DNA from: Odontesthes bonariensis
Taxonomy: Eukaryota > Chordata > Actinopteri > Atheriniformes > Atherinopsidae
Direction of reading: 5' to 3'
Length of the DNA: 64,000 nt
Assembly (NCBI RefSeq): GCF_027942865.1
Contig: NC_134506.1
Span: 15,894,436-15,958,435 of the forward strand
Positions 1,823 through 9,200 of the stretch are shown piece by piece. The notes below the pieces were generated by a model. That model was given only the letters and a program-made list of their open reading frames with translations, had not been told where the DNA came from and made no database searches. The translations under genes were made by a program, and so were the position numbers. Each line of letters starts with the position of its first letter. Position 1 is the first letter of the stretch.

Positions 1823-1870
1823 CATATTGGAGTCAACTATAATCTTCAAAGCAAAAGAACATTGATTTAA

Positions 1871-1889
1871 AGGTAGGGTAGGTAATCCT
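1871..1889 (+). repeat. Left terminal inverted repeat of the transposon
   Basis: Sequence AGGTAGGGTAGGTAATCCT directly after TTAA. It pairs with 8476-8494 at 17 of 19 positions, with mismatches at positions 3 and 6. Confidence 0.9.
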
Positions 1890-2023
1890 GTTCAGAAACA
1901 CATTTTGTAATACTGGGTGAAATGCTCCGTCTATCCTGAGAGAAATCTAACCAAGATGTATTTAGAAAAAGGGACGGAAATAATCAGACCTCTGTGGCAG
2001 CTGCAGGACTGAGAAAAAGCAGA

Positions 2024-2136
2024 CCAATCCGAGATCAGCGGGACGCTGATCTCAGCCTACAAAAAACCAATCAGATGCATCTGCGCTTTCTGCCTACGCC
2101 CCCCTCTGTCGGCTCCCTACTCCGCGCGCGCACGCG
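2024..2136 (+). promoter_or_regulatory. Probable transposase promoter with hairpin, two CCAAT boxes and CpG cluster
   Basis: Between the left end and the transposase ATG lie CCAAT at 2024-2028, a perfect 10-bp palindrome with a 3-nt loop at 2031-2053 (arms GAGATCAGCG and CGCTGATCTC), a second CCAAT at 2067-2071, and a CpG-rich block at 2121-2136 (CCGCGCGCGCACGCGG). No TATA box is seen. This suits a CpG-type promoter; the hairpin could instead be a subterminal transposase-binding site. Function is inferred from position only. Confidence 0.5.
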
Positions 2137-2163
2137 GTTCTAAAACGACTTTATACGGCAAAA

Positions 2164-3918
2164 ATGGCAGATAAAATGCAGCCGAAACCACCAATCCCCT
2201 TACTTGTGACGGCTCCCCCCGCTAAAAAGGGAAGAAAAAGAAAGCCGGCGGCAGAAACGGCTGCTACTAAAAAGGCTAAGGATAAAGCCAGAAACAACAC
2301 AAGAGTCAACATCGGTCCAGCGTTTGAGCGGTGGAGACAACTGAGGGATCTGAAGGGCCTGCAAAGCGATGCAGCGGTTGCTTTCTTTCTGTTGGACATG
2401 TAATTATTTGTTTTGCTTCGGGGGGATTTGTTATTTTCATGAAATATGCAAGGTTTGCCAACTTGGCTACTTTTGTAGCTCGTATTAGCCTAACGCTAAC
2501 ATTAGCGTCTTCTCCGTGTTGTTTTTAGCCATGAGATGGCCGTCGAAACACAGACTGATGAGACCCCCTCCCCCACCTGTGTCAACAATTTTTTCTTTGA
2601 ATCTCTGTCCGACCGGTGAGTTCAACTTGCTGCTGCTGTGAACATGGCTTTGACAAACGTTGTCTTTGTTGGGATATATGTCACTGGCTCTTCTATGGAC
2701 TATTTGCTGGTATATGCTATGCAGAGAGGATGGGGGCAAACTGAGGATCTTCTCAACAGTAAATATCAATCTTCAGGCTGTTTCGGTCCGTCAAAACATC
2801 TTCCCATAAACTGCCAAATCAGTGCTGCAGTCCTGTGTTGCATCCTTGATGAATGAAGACATTTTTTATGTTGATGCTGTGCTGACAATATTATATAATT
2901 GTGTAATCTTCACAGAGAGGATGACTTTTCACAAGCTGGAGTTCAGGAGTTAAACATTAGCTGCCCAGAGGAGACAGCTCTCCAGCAATTGGATGCAAGG
3001 TATGTTATGGTAGTAAGATAATGTGTCCAATTATTTCCAGAATATAACTAAGAGTAAATTTATGGTATGTGCATTATTTCAGCGACATGTGGTGATGTAA
3101 TATTCCCTCATTTTTGTGTGTGTTTTTGTCTTTTTAGCATGTCACCACTGGACCTGAACATTGATGTTGATGCAGATGAATTTAATGACATTCGAAACTC
3201 CATGTAAGTTGCTGTGTGGTGTGCAGAGATGTTTTTACTCTCCTGTTTGTGGAAAATTGTAGTCATTTTGTGAATTTTTATATTGTTTTCTCCGAATTTC
3301 TTTTTTATTTTATAGCATTGACTGGGAAGATGAAGATGACTCCTGGAATCCTGATATGGAGACAGTGTCATCATTAGAAGAAGATGCAACCAGGGAAGTG
3401 GACTCAGATGATGATGACAGTGACGATCCAGATTTTAGGCCTCGTATTTGTGTTAGGTAGTTTCAATACCTTCTAGCTCCACTTAGTCAAGTTATTGTGT
3501 TTTTTTTATTGTAATTTCTCATAGCTGTTCTTATTACAACAGGACTGGCGGTGCTCTGAAGACTACAATTTGCTTGGAATCACTTCAAGAAATTAGCATG
3601 GAGGACACTGTACATGATGCTCCAGACAACGCCCCAGATCCAACTATGGCAGACATGTCAACACTCCCTGATGCACTCAAAGTCATGGTTGAGGATGACA
3701 TAATTGGCCATCCGGCATCCATTGCATATCATGACAGCTTGAAGCAGCTTGCCGAGTATCTCCTTCTCCCTGTCAGCGTGTGTTCTGCCAAGGACCCAAA
3801 TAGGAAGGGAGAGTGCCGGGCACCTGGACCATTCGAAATCAATATCAGGTCCAGGGGAACCGCTGCTGTCATAGAATGGGTGAGTCTTTATTTTGCATAA
3901 AAGAGTATTACATATATT

Positions 3919-3955
<37 letters not shown>

Positions 3956-6742
3956 GAATCAACTTCAATAAACATAAATGGAAAAGCTTATAACATAAGT
4001 GCTGTAGGGTGGAAGTTGTCAAGGAGAAGAAGAGAGCCTTTTAGGTCAGGAAACAAGGAGGCGACAAGGAGAGCTCCTTCAGCGACAGACTGAAAAAAGA
4101 TAATGTGTAGTATTAATCATTGTAGTTGCTATAATGTGCTCTTTCTCCCTGCCTGCTTTTTTCCAGGTGTGTCCTCGAGGTCACACTGTTTGGAAGTGGG
4201 CTTCTCAGCCCATTTTGAAATATGGGATGGCAGTCGGAGACTTCATGCTTTCCACTAACATCCTGCTATCGGGCAACAATTACGCCAAGATCTCACTGCT
4301 GTTCAAGTTTATGAAACTTGGGATGGTAGAGAGGTCGTCATTCTTCAGGATCCAGGACTCCTACTGTGTGGACACTATAAAGGAGTTCTGGGATGACAAG
4401 AGAGCCGCAGTCATCACCCAGCTCAAGTCAAAAGGGCCTGTTGTAGCTCTGGGTGAGTTAGAGACACACGCATGTGTTCACAGATACACACACAAGCGCA
4501 CATGCATTATTCATATGAAGCACAATATAATCTAAATGGATATATTTCCAAGAGATGGTATTTGGCAAGCCATATGCATATTGATAGTAAGACCAAAAAC
4601 TACACAAAATAAAATAGTTGAGTGTAGACATTGAAGAGTAGGATAAAGTATATTAATATTTTATCGGGGGATTTATTTGTAAGATACGAAGTGCTGGACT
4701 GACATATTGCACAATGGTTTTTCATAAAGTTGGATCAGCATAAAATGCCCTATTTGGGACAATGTTTTTATAACTTTTTCTCTGTTTTTGTTCTAATTTA
4801 TTTTCAAAGGAGATGCTCGCATGGACAGTCCTGGATTCTGTGCGCAGTATTGTACCTATACTGCCATGGACAATGAATCCAAACAGATAATCTGCATGGT
4901 CAATATCGACAAGCGTGAGACCATGCGGAACTCTGTCATAATGGAGAAGGAGGGCTTCGTGCAAACTTTTGAGAAATTACGTGAAGAACTCAACATTGAG
5001 GAATTCTGCACAGACGCTCATTCACAGATATCAGCCCTCTTCAGTAAATTCATTATCTTCTTTTGCTGTAGGAGATTGTTTCAGCAATCCAACTTTGTGC
5101 ATATAGTCCCATGACACAATCATCACTTACATTATTATGAATCGATAATGATTGGTATTATGACTTAGTATTTATCCTCAGACTTTTTTGTCCTACAGAC
5201 AACAAAGGGAAATATAAAGATTGTGGTGTCCGACACACCCTGGACATGTGGCATGGGTCCAAAAGTTTGGGGAAAAAAATTCATGCAGTAAGTTAATGAT
5301 CTCTCTGTAGATATAGCTGGATTAAAAAAAAAAAAAAATCATCTACGCCAATTATCTTCTCATAAACCTATTTGACATCCCAAAAATGTATTTGTGCTCC
5401 ATTGTCAAGGCAGGACAACAAAGGGGGTGCACCATCCTTCAGATGTGGAGTAAGGATGTTTGCAACCACTTCTGGTACTGTTGCAAAACTGCAGACACAT
5501 ATGAAGATTTCTTTGTAAGTATTATCAAAATTCATCTATCTAGGCCACACTCTATTGCTGAGTAGTAATTGGGCAAAAATGGTTTAAATTTTTTTTTGAC
5601 CAAATTTGTCACAACGTGTAATTTTTTTACCATAGGACAGGTGGACTGGACTACTTCACCATGTGACAGGAGAACATGCGTGGGCCCTTGGTGCCTGTCA
5701 TCATGGTCCCTTGGTGGAGGACAGAGAGAAGGAGTGGATCCAGAAGGGTTCTATGGCACACCAGAGACTGAGAGAAGTAGTCCTTGATGCACGCTGGCTA
5801 AAGAGCGTACACAAATATCTACATTTTAGGTATGTCAGCATAGTTCTATGTTCAACTGACTGTTTTCTCCTATGAAAATATTTCACTGTACTTCTGTATT
5901 TGCCCTGCTATTTCTTCATTTGTACTACCAGAGTATAAAGCAATTTTATCTTTCATCTGTGGTCTCAGGTCAACTGCAGAGTTGGAGTCCTTCCACAATC
6001 ATATTCTCATGTATGCCAGCAAGAGCTTCTGCTTTTCACCGCCCGTGTACACTGCTCGAGTCCTGTTGGCTGGCCTGGACTACAATCACCACGTTGACAG
6101 ACCAGTCAAGAGAAGGGCTGATGGCTCTATTCTGTATGTTTAATTTTATGTGGAAAAATTAAATACTGTACATTGTAAGATAATATGAACGTATCACTAA
6201 GCTTCTAATCTTTTCTCTAATGGCAGATACGGCAAGGTGTACAATAAAAAGTCCAGGAAGTGGAGCCTTTACGCACTAAAGGTGGAAAAGGACTACGGTT
6301 ACATTGTGGACCTCCAAAGTGCAATTCTGCGGCACAGATTGTCCGTTGCTGGGGGTTTGCCACGGACTGCAAGGAAGAGGCCTGACGATCCCCGTCAACA
6401 TGGGGTTCTGTCAGGTGTCCCGGCCCCATCAACGCAGGAGCTTTTGCAGAGACAACTCAGCAGAGGGCTAGGTGAGTTTTCTTGCAATATTGTAGCTTGA
6501 TCACGAATATAATTATGTGCAAAAGTTAGTTTTAAAAATCCATGTCATAATTTATGATCTAAAATAATTATCTAAACAAAGCCAAGGATGTAACACTTAG
6601 AAAATTGTCACAAGTGTTTGTTACTGTGTAAAATGGAAACAAAGTTGTAAGTGTTGTCATTGTGTCTCTAAAACGCAGTAATTATTGTCAGATGTGTAAT
6701 TTTGATATTCTTCCTAAAGGTAAATCGCTGCCAAAGGAATAG
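2164..6742 (+). CDS. Kolobok-like DDE-type transposase, intact, 14 exons
   Basis: Exons: 2164-2399, 2529-2615, 2916-2999, 3138-3203, 3316-3456, 3543-3879, 4167-4452, 4810-5043, 5199-5287, 5410-5514, 5636-5829, 5969-6133, 6227-6471, 6720-6742. Every junction is GT/AG and in phase: 2292 nt, 763 aa, no internal stop. The ATG at 2164 has a good context (AAAATGG). N-terminus: basic, nuclear-signal-like (KKGRKRKP), then VNIGPAFERWRQL. Exons 3-5 encode an acidic region (DSDDDDSDDPD). The core contains GDARMDSPG (Asp414) and CTDAHSQI (Asp481), followed by DMWHGSK, FWYCCK and TGEHAW (Glu568). These fit an RNase-H-fold transposase with carboxylates in order, as in the D-S-P-G...T-D-x-H family frequent in fish genomes. 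Catalytic assignments are inferred. Its position inside TTAA-flanked inverted repeats supports the role. It could be a live transposase or a recently inserted copy; nothing indicates host domestication. Confidence 0.85.
3928..3954 (+). repeat. Poly-T tract in transposase intron 6
   Basis: About 27 consecutive T residues ending in TTTAGG. It offers a strong-looking but unused splice acceptor: the exon that keeps the frame starts at 4167. Confidence 0.8.
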
Positions 6743-6815
6743 ATCGCCACATGCACAGCCTGACCAGTCGGTCGGCCATCCCTGGAAATATCTTTTGCAT
6801 TTTTTTTTTTTTTAC

Positions 6816-6821
6816 AATAAA
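6816..6821 (+). terminator. Polyadenylation signal of the transposase gene
   Basis: AATAAA, 74 bp after the TAG stop at 6740-6742, just after a run of T. Confidence 0.7.
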
Positions 6822-7071
6822 AAGTGTTATACCACATTTGTTGTCATTATTCATTTAGAATGTGAGAGGGTGAGAAATGTAATACCTTGTTTATGCATAA
6901 ATTGTAAAGGAAAGGCATTTATCATTTTTAAAATGTTATTCAAACGACAAAATATAAATAACAATAAAAAGACAGAACTTTGGACAGTACAGACTGTAAA
7001 CCTGAGTGCAAATTTTAAAGAAATATGTAAACACTAACAGTATGAATGGCAGGGCTCAAGAGCAGATGCTA

Positions 7072-7077
7072 TTTATT
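7072..7077 (-). terminator. Polyadenylation signal of the ballast-domain gene
   Basis: AATAAA on the minus strand, only about 10 nt past the stop codon (7087-7089). This gives a very short 3' UTR and a tail-to-tail arrangement with the transposase gene about 250 bp away. Confidence 0.6.
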
Positions 7078-7086
7078 GCACTGTGC

Positions 7087-8336
7087 TTACACCCTACTGG
7101 GGATGAAACCTTTGTACTGTCCATGTGGATCTGGGTAGCGGTCTCTAATTTTCCAAACACAGCAGCTAGGAATCACTACTCTGTGCCCAGCTCCCAGTGC
7201 CCCATATTGCCACACAACATATTGCCGGTATGCAGCATGGTGGAATTGTTTGTTGCTCTCCCCTGGGTTTGGAACATCCTCCACAGCCTGTACATCGTTC
7301 CAGATCCTTCTGGCAAGTCGCAAGACCCCCTCCTGCAAAATGTACGCTTCAAGGTGAGGCAGCGTGGAAATGCAGGAGTCGGGTTGTTGCCCACAACACT
7401 TTCTTTCCACATCTGTGGGCATCTCCCGGCAGTTTCGGCACACACACCAAGTGGGTTGACCTGGAGCTGGAGGGCCTGGTGGAGGCACATCTCCTGATGT
7501 TGATATGTGCAGGATATCAAACATGAGACTTGGGTCCCTTGTCAGGCAGATCTGCAGCAAGCCATGGGATTCTTGCAAGCTCAGTGTCTGAATTCTGGAC
7601 TGTAAAACAATTCATCAAGAAGATTAGACTTTTTTGACAACTTTGTTGTCCTCTAAGAGGACTTTTATGTCCATAGTAGGCCTATATGGCAGGTCATCAT
7701 TTATAGTTATTGATGATGTAGAGGTGCGAAAAATATTAATTAAAAATGCTATTTTAAATAGGTGACCTGCTCATCTGCAATTCTTTGAGCTTGCAGATTA
7801 TCCACTCGCACAATGTCTTCATGTAGAAGTTGTTCTCCGGTCGCAGTCCGGCTTGCTCCCCGTCCTCTACCTCGAGTTCCTCGGCTTCTACCCCGTGCAC
7901 CACCTCTTGCACGGCCCCCTCTTGCTCGAGCATGAACGCGCTGTCCTCTTTGCCCTGAAGACGTGCTCGGCTCCGGACTGTAGCTAGGATCAGAGCCGCT
8001 CTCGTCGTGGGTGCTCTAACAAGCAAAATAACAAAGACATATCTTTAAAAAAATCAAAAATCACGTTTGCCAGGGGAAAAAACGTTACGTTACATACAGT
8101 GTAATTTAGCAGACGCTTTATCCAAAGTGCCGTACATTTGAGAGTTCCCTCTTCTAACAATGGCGTGGGGGTAATGGGGGACGGTGTTTATCATAGCAGC
8201 CAACCATGACATGCTAGCTGGAGAGCTGAATCTGCAGCCTCTGGGTGTGCAGAGACATACTACGGTACTTTTTTTCTTTTTCTTTTAAATAATCGTTGCA
8301 ATAGTAATATAGTTTACTTACAGGTGAGTGAGACAT
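7087..8336 (-). CDS. RG-rich protein with P2X7-type cytoplasmic ballast domain, carried by the transposon
   Basis: Three minus-strand exons: 8322-8336 (ATG at 8336, five codons, GTAAGT donor), 7767-8015 and 7087-7599; all phase 0, 258 aa, no stops. Residues 28-61 are an Arg/Gly-rich tract (repeated RGG/RG), typical of RNA- or nucleic-acid-binding tails. From about residue 138 the protein matches the C-terminal cytoplasmic domain of the P2X7 receptor: WCVCRNCREMP (139-149), KCC (155-157), FHHAAYRQYVVW, GALGAGHRVVIPSCCVW (Cys234, Cys235) and IRDRYP...GFIPSRV at the end. In P2X7 this cysteine-rich fold binds zinc and guanine nucleotide. No P2X channel part and no membrane segment are present, so it is not a receptor but a stand-alone ballast-domain protein. 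Its place inside the transposon, convergent with the transposase, suggests it belongs to the element. Function unknown. The exon 2 donor (GTCACC) is weak. Confidence 0.85.
8095..8200. repeat. SINE/LINE-tail-like fragment inside the transposon
   Basis: Contains AGCAGACGCTTTATCCAAAG, the start of a very common fish dispersed repeat, within intron 1 of the ballast-domain gene. A weaker relative lies at about 33340-33500. Confidence 0.5.
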
Positions 8337-8449
8337 GTCGTCAGAGTCCCAGCGTCAGATGCGCGTTCAAGTTTGTGGGGGCGTGGCTTTGGATGAAGCA
8401 TGGGGGGGGGGGGGGCGGTTGGAGCTTAGAGGAGGGGCCACTTTCGAAT

Positions 8450-8473
8450 CTTGCTAGCTCTCTTGCTAGCTCT
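8450..8473 (+). repeat. Tandem 12-mer next to the right transposon end
   Basis: CTTGCTAGCTCT occurs twice head to tail, ending 2 bp before the right inverted repeat. A subterminal position like this suits a transposase-binding repeat, but no copy was found near the left end. Confidence 0.6.
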
Positions 8474-8475
8474 CT

Positions 8476-8494
8476 AGGATTACCTACCATAGCT
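8476..8494 (-). repeat. Right terminal inverted repeat of the transposon
   Basis: Inverted copy of 1871-1889 (17 of 19 bases), followed directly by TTAA at 8495-8498. Confidence 0.9.
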
Positions 8495-8504
8495 TTAACA
8501 GTGA

Positions 8505-9200
8505 CCTATAGTAAAATAGAAGAACAAAGTATAATTAAGAGTAGAATGAAGGAAAGATGGCAGCAGCAATGAGAAGAAGAGAGAAAAGGACAGTGGGAGA
8601 AGTGTGATGGACTGGAAGAAACAGAAGAAATTGGGAAACGCTGGGCTTAATAATAAATACTGTACTTGTGGGGTTATTTTGATGTTTTTTTTGTTCTCCA
8701 GTCTGTGTTGGAGTTTATTGTAATGCACTGGGCTTTGTTCAGACTGGACACATATCATGACAAAGTAAAAAATAAAATTGTATAGAAAATTTTTTTTTTA
8801 AAAATACTGTACGTAATGTGTAAACATGACTCGGGTAGATGTGATTTTTTTTTTAATCAAGAAGAAACAATAGAACATGTTATGATTAAGTGTAAGAAAT
8901 ATGACACTGGAAGGATAAAGATGATTGAAAGACTTAGGGAAATAAAAGTGCAGTTTGAACTTGTAGACAGTTGAGTTGATGTATGTTATTATGAAATCAT
9001 ATTTTATCATCTGGCATTATCTGGTCTGATTAAAAGAACATAGGTGATCAGTGTTTTTTCTATTTGTTTGTTTTTTTTGGCTGGCTGTCTTCATCCATAC
9101 TCCTTATCAGTTGGTGGCAGTAATGCACCACAACGTTGTTTGCCACCCGCCAATTAATACCGGAAGAAGAAGAAGAAGAAGCAGAAGAAGCAGAAGAAGC
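8505..9200 (+). mobile_element. 3' end of a non-LTR retrotransposon with (GAA)n tail
   Basis: At about 8870-8960 one frame reads ETIEHVMIKCKKYD, like the C-terminal Cys/His segment of fish LINE ORF2 proteins. It is followed by GGTGGCAGTAATGCACCA and CCACCCGCCAATTAA, and then an AGAAGAAGAAG tail at about 9165-9200, the usual 3' end of a GAA-tailed fish LINE. It is 5'-truncated with no intact ORF. It lies between the transposon and the stk16 5' leader. Confidence 0.65.

Follow-up and report, generated by a model that had tools for sequence, protein, structure and literature searches.

The window analysed here, a stretch of 64,000 nucleotides from Odontesthes bonariensis, contains at positions 1871-8494 a mobile element of 6,624 bp, lying between two copies of TTAA, which carries a transposase gene and, convergent with it, a second gene (KolX) encoding a P2X7-type ballast domain. 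We consider it highly probable that this is a DNA transposon of the Kolobok superfamily, of the Kol0 type, which moves by cut and paste and may still be autonomous, with KolX as its convergent partner gene. The ballast gene is part of this element, which is young and moved not long ago. The window thus holds a young and well-preserved example of the transposons from which P2X7 is thought to have obtained its cytoplasmic domain.

Ends and target site of the element

The left terminal inverted repeat (1871-1889, plus strand) begins with AG and the right one (8476-8494, minus strand) ends with CT; 17 of 19 bases agree between the left end and the reverse-complemented right end. Target-site duplications TTAA are found at 1867-1870 on the left and at 8495-8498 on the right. 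They are present on both sides in all four of the copies L001-L004 (the window included, with both ends in one locus), and in the other four near-full copies TTAA stands beside the ends in view, namely one end each in L005, L006 and L007 and both ends of the copy on contig C6, seen in L008 and L013. Three repeat members were compared as possible empty sites: L058 and L059 continue through the insertion point with one single TTAA, being 85-87% identical across the junction, and the third, L057, gave no alignment across it. As for the surroundings, the element is nested in an older repeat (1841-1870 and 8499-9000 of the window), and its right flank is broken at about 8664-8789 by a short, very common repeat.

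The transposase gene

The first gene is predicted to encode, at 2164-6742 on the plus strand, a Kolobok-type DDE transposase of 763 aa, whose frame is uninterrupted until a TAG stop. Its 14 predicted exons lie at 2164-2399, 2529-2615, 2916-2999, 3138-3203, 3316-3456, 3543-3879, 4167-4452, 4810-5043, 5199-5287, 5410-5514, 5636-5829, 5969-6133, 6227-6471 and 6720-6742, and an AATAAA that may be the poly-A signal follows at 6816-6821 on the same strand. The splice sites of both genes were predicted from GT/AG and frame; in a comparison with L048, a second family with about 39% identity, the gaps of the alignment coincide with the predicted junctions or lie no more than a few residues from them.

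Kolobok elements are described as having a TTAA target, RR/YY ends and a DDD/E transposase with a C/DxxH motif and a zinc finger between DxxH and E (Kojima & Bao 2022, PMC9587614, in part). The TTAA duplication and the termini AG...CT, that is 5'-RR and YY-3', agree with this description. The Pfam match of the transposase is weak (Mutator, E 5e-5, below the cut-off), and the DDD/E triad with DxxH between the second D and E was recognized by motif: LGDAR-DSPG (D414), TDAH-QI (D481), LDMWH (D506xxH509) and LESFHNHIL (E626). D481, DxxH and E626 are kept in all four of L046-L049, and D414 is kept in L048, the only one of these four in which that stretch aligned. Between DxxH and E there is also a C/H-rich stretch (C538/C544/C545, H563/H564/H569), the first cysteine of which is missing in L048.

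The second gene and its ballast domain

KolX is predicted on the minus strand, from 8336 to 7087, as three exons encoding 258 aa in an open frame. Exon 1 (8322-8336) is a prediction only and would supply the start MSHSP, exon 2 (7767-8015) is predicted to encode an RG-rich region, and exon 3 (7087-7599), with a predicted phase-0 acceptor, encodes the ballast domain PF20478; 3' of the stop an AATAAA at 7072-7077, also on the minus strand, was read from the sequence as a possible poly-A signal. The ballast exon scores PF20478 at E 1.1e-30 and, among PDB entries, matches chains of P2X7 with an E of about 1e-18, so that a second gene with the ballast fold, as expected of KolX in Kol0 elements, is recognized by sequence. 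PF20478 is the only Pfam match of KolX above the cut-off, and no P2X channel domain was found among its Pfam matches.

The preliminary description had spoken of an intact TTAA-flanked element with two open, convergent, spliced genes, the second of them encoding the cytoplasmic ballast domain of P2X7. The first statement is confirmed by the ends, the frames, the further copies and the empty sites, and the second by the PF20478 and PDB matches.

The residues of the domain were compared in 26 ballast rows other than P2X7. Cysteines of the zinc sites at rat positions 477, 479, 482, 498, 499, 506 and 572 are found in all 26 rows, and the one at 573 in 25. C548 is present in rat P2X7 and in the P2X7 of the same genome, and in 0 of the 26 other rows; it is no firm mark of P2X7, because another mammalian chain, 9e3q, has R there. 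Five GDP contacts are reported for rat P2X7, R546, H547, R574, R578 and K583 (PMC7016195, in part). Among the 26 rows R578 is found in 26, R546 in 21 and H547 in 20, and R574 and K583 in none; these last two are also missing from the own-genome P2X7. In the window KolX (7087-7599) an H stands at the position of rat R546, which is R in P2X7 and in 21 of 26 rows; H is found there in one other row of the 26.

The N-terminus of KolX is RG-rich in five families (window, L046, L048, L050 and L052). Judging from its codon changes, KolX is constrained between families: the window copy and L030 differ by 58.5 synonymous changes in 79 sites and 38.5 nonsynonymous changes in 284 sites, and the pair L030-L024 gives a dN/dS of 0.16. 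Synonymous sites are saturated in 7 of the 14 pairs, and the young pairs, having few changes, give noisy values from 0.2 to 1.0 (1.0 for L027-L029, 0.67 for L011-L017). We take this constraint to mean that the copies that founded families kept KolX intact, as expected for a protein that the element needs, and we regard it as very likely that KolX is of some benefit to the element.

Ballast genes and transposases across the genome

A search of the own genome with the PF20478 profile yielded 596 candidate places; scores were computed for 150 of them, without exception above the cut-off, and the same search in 14 control genomes gave zero matches. One of the 30 best loci, L009, was taken as P2X7 on the basis of its score (222 bits, the next best having 118) and of its match to both parts of PF20478 in two exons, a check that covered the ballast part. 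All 29 best non-P2X7 loci show some transposon evidence (150 of 596 candidates scored, one genome). At 25 of the 29, convergent C-terminal exons of a transposase are no more than 1.5 kb away; the window's own family, the window itself included, contributes 9 of the 25, and outside that family the proportion is 16 of 20. At L023 the convergent transposase is 6.1 kb away, near L022 (= L052) there is a first exon of a transposase, L036 (= L054) is a deletion form having one end in common with the L048 family, and L010 has TTAA, ends agreeing at 16 of 16 bases and a transposase-like N-terminal exon.

The reverse search, starting from the transposase, gave 677 candidates, of which 59 were scored, grouped by eye into 37 places and paired by eye with the ballast matches. 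At 23 of the 37 places one of the listed ballast matches lies no farther than about 11 kb away, every time in convergent orientation; the window's family accounts for 9 of the 23. The other 14 places, without a ballast match among those listed (150 of 596 scored), comprise 8 distant relatives (30-32%) and 6 closer ones. KolX proteins in this recurring convergent arrangement are 48-71% identical to that of the window.

Ends were also searched for in other families. L048 and L049 have TTAA and inverted ends agreeing at 15 of 16 bases, with both genes inside, and no such ends appeared in 20 shuffles of each. Among the other families, the scan for TTAA and inverted ends showed both ends for L048, L049 and L010 only; it gave none for L050, L051, L052, L053, L054, L046 and L047, nor for L046+L055, L056+L047, L043, L044, L045 and L040. 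L044 has inverted arms of 27 bases, which we do not claim as ends because no TTAA adjoins them.

It had been supposed beforehand that the ballast domain may be carried by mobile elements of this sort, and that this would explain stand-alone 'P2X7-like' genes of fish. The former is borne out by many copies in several families; the latter holds for the best 29 non-P2X7 loci of one genome, 25 of them with a transposase tail within 1.5 kb. Of the searches then proposed, the one for transposase and ballast genes as neighbours found the pairs at 23 of 37 places within about 11 kb, and the one for copies with the same ends and both genes found at least eight near-full copies, as well as both genes between the ends of L048 and L049.

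Other carriers of the domain and distant relatives

Shorter ballast carriers were also noticed. L010 (G000:C17:5402518-5405991) contains at 765-2771 a TTAA-flanked element of 2.0 kb with inverted ends of about 370 bases, 96% identical, in which splicing could join a transposase-like N-terminal exon, in frame, to a complete ballast exon; no in-frame ATG was found at the expected start in the left end. Among the matches listed (40 of 147 scored) its relatives include L040 (94%), with ballast coding sequence, and many consisting of ends only. A second type, seen in L045 (2082-3055) and L062 (G000:C1:11125860-11127210), is an element of 1.25 kb with inverted ends of about 93 bases (78%) that begin with AGGAAAA beside TTAA. 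It encodes solely an intronless ballast protein, which is open over 256 aa in L045 and has a broken frame in L062, and it occurs in at least five places including L045, 91-97% identical to L045 (40 of 546 candidates scored). A gag-like ORF (SCAN, zinc knuckle) directly follows the L045 element.

L043 and L044 represent an abundant family with an intron inside the region coding for the ballast domain, so that only profile positions of about 142-192 match; the pattern is common to many of the 150 scored PF20478 matches, two places (L043 and L044) having been opened. In L044 a THAP domain (E 5e-6) lies on the opposite strand, convergent with the ballast exon. Finally, five distant relatives of the transposase, about 30% identical (G000:C2:32106385, C14:39805205, C15:34233400, C13:26768417 and C16:5203684), each consist of one long open frame, 581-694 aa in length; none has a ballast neighbour among the matches listed, and they may belong to a different Kolobok lineage or be domesticated genes.

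The ballast domain of P2X7

A tree was built from 29 ballast domains, 26 non-P2X7 rows, all from one genome, and three P2X7 rows; L035 (internal stop), L040, L043 and L044 (partial) and L015, L016 and L033 (identical to others) were left out. The P2X7 rows group together in a single clade (100/99), placed on a long branch and outside all 26 others; long branches are the subject of a warning given by the program. Being unrooted, the tree does not give the direction between P2X7 and KolX.

The own-genome P2X7 has, as read by eye, a phase-0 intron before its ballast exon, and in the gene model the ballast exon of the window KolX starts in phase 0 as well. In nine KolX rows (L010, L022, L023, L024, L031-L034 and L037) our script found a suitable acceptor at that position, also phase 0; in most other KolX rows, including the window, the acceptor failed its pyrimidine rule. 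The script gave candidate phase-1 acceptors close to the WCxC motif for L018 and L027-L029, and phase 2 for L043 and L044, with the split domain. By eye, the KolX intron lies some 8-10 codons earlier than that of P2X7. The shared phase 0 agrees with the capture of a whole exon, weakly if taken alone, since equal phase is expected by chance in one case of three.

It is also conceivable that the capture went the other way, the ballast gene being a host gene, derived from P2X7 or a nanor-like gene, that was picked up as a passenger and is not ancestral to the element; the unrooted tree, in which P2X7 and KolX split cleanly, leaves room for this. We judge it unlikely, because the convergent arrangement recurs in all 23 pairs with KolX proteins as divergent as those described above, because none of the KolX rows groups with P2X7, and because ballast proteins are reported from sponges and cnidarians, whereas P2X7 is reported from bony fish and tetrapods (PMC7016195, in part). 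The preferred reading, that exon 13 of P2X7 was taken from a KolX-type gene, is probable in our opinion, and it has already been published (PMC9587614, in part). The preliminary description had proposed such elements as the route by which P2X7 gained the domain and a tree including P2X7 as a check: the proposal fits the data, without its direction following from the unrooted tree, and in that tree P2X7 does form one clade, lying outside the sampled KolX on its long branch.

Copies in the own genome

Copies were searched for in the own genome, 945 Mb in 187 contigs; 40 of 1133 candidates were scored, and the copy numbers given here are lower bounds. At least eight near-full copies including the window were found (on C1, C25, C8, C24, C18, C26, C12 and C6), of which the one on C18 lacks the last 81 bases, those on C26 and C12 are interrupted and that on C6 lacks about 107 bases. 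There are also at least three copies with large internal deletions (C7, C15 and C4) and at least 18 short copies, made up of roughly 270 left-end bases joined to roughly 110 from the right.

Besides the window, four near-full copies out of seven were mapped for open frames; gaps excluded, these four are 98.1-98.7% identical to the window. One of them, L002, has an open transposase, and KolX is open in L002 and in L003. In L003-L005 the transposase frames were broken in the exon mapping, possibly by alignment error, and one might think of a KolX domesticated by the host beside the debris of a dead transposon. This we hold to be very improbable, considering that neither gene has a broken frame in the window copy or in L002, that the mapped copies are so similar to the window and that the empty sites are precise.

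Proposed mechanism

The idea that the element is a piggyBac, which also targets TTAA, hardly deserves credit, given the AG...CT (RR/YY) termini, a stated difference from piggyBac (PMC9587614, in part), the lack of any piggyBac transposase model among the Pfam matches up to E 10 and the seven conserved zinc-site cysteines. A viral carrier was also considered and rejected: a scan of viral contigs for KolX gave 23 pattern matches, none of which was confirmed.

For the Kolobok element, the DDE transposase, with D414, D481 and E626 assigned by motif as its catalytic residues, would bind the short inverted ends and excise the element. Insertion would then take place into TTAA with duplication of the target, the product and the empty site of this step being observed. 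The short copies consisting of ends only would be moved in trans. The RG-rich part of KolX may contact nucleic acid and its ballast domain may act as a stiff module for protein contacts; that KolX is such a non-catalytic accessory protein is the role we favour for it, but as a tentative suggestion with a probability somewhat below even. More speculative still, the ballast could be primarily a transposon module, with KolX a conserved and selected partner in Kol0 transposition, joined to an RG-rich tail for binding nucleic acid, with full carriers and short TTAA-flanked ones that lack a complete transposase (the L010 and L045/L062 types) spreading the domain through this genome, and with exon 13 of P2X7 as one landing that became fixed, acquired as an entire phase-0 exon.

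Since both frames of the window copy are open, the role of KolX in transposition and the function of the ballast before it joined an ATP-gated channel become testable at the bench. The results are also a warning for annotation, as a stand-alone gene labelled 'P2X7-like' may belong to a transposon.

Comparison with known systems

With the P2X7 ballast of PDB 6u9v, which we take to be rat P2X7, and of 9e3q, KolX has in common PF20478, the zinc-site cysteines and R578, and with the own-genome P2X7 the phase-0 intron before the ballast exon; it differs from P2X7 in having no detected channel part and an RG-rich N-terminus instead. Compared by description, KolX also resembles nanor and the nanor-like ZCD proteins (PMC7016195, in part), which are stand-alone ballast proteins with a short N-terminus. 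In the parts of that article dealing with them, these genes were treated in 2020 as host genes and no conserved synteny was reported.

Rump et al. 2020 (PMC7016195, in part) followed the ballast domain through the Metazoa and described how a P2X4-like gene captured it; the string 'transpos' is absent from the main text. Kojima & Bao 2022 (PMC9587614, in part) attributed a ballast fold to the KolX of Kol0 Kolobok elements, derived P2X7 from a fusion with KolX and considered nanor a likely domesticated KolX. The link between KolX and P2X7 has thus been in print since 2022, and therefore the idea of the preliminary description was right in essence and already known. The abstract and sections 3 and 10 of PMC9587614 report no experiment on KolX, no RG-rich tail, selection test or phase-0 intron, no convergent order with counts and no short ballast carriers. 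With Kol0 as described in those parts, our element shares TTAA, RR/YY ends, a DDE transposase with DxxH and a KolX with the ballast domain, and nothing decisive separates the two. To this description the present analysis adds, for one genome, the locus counts, the convergent order, the constraint on KolX between families, its RG-rich N-terminus in five families and the phase-0 ballast exon.
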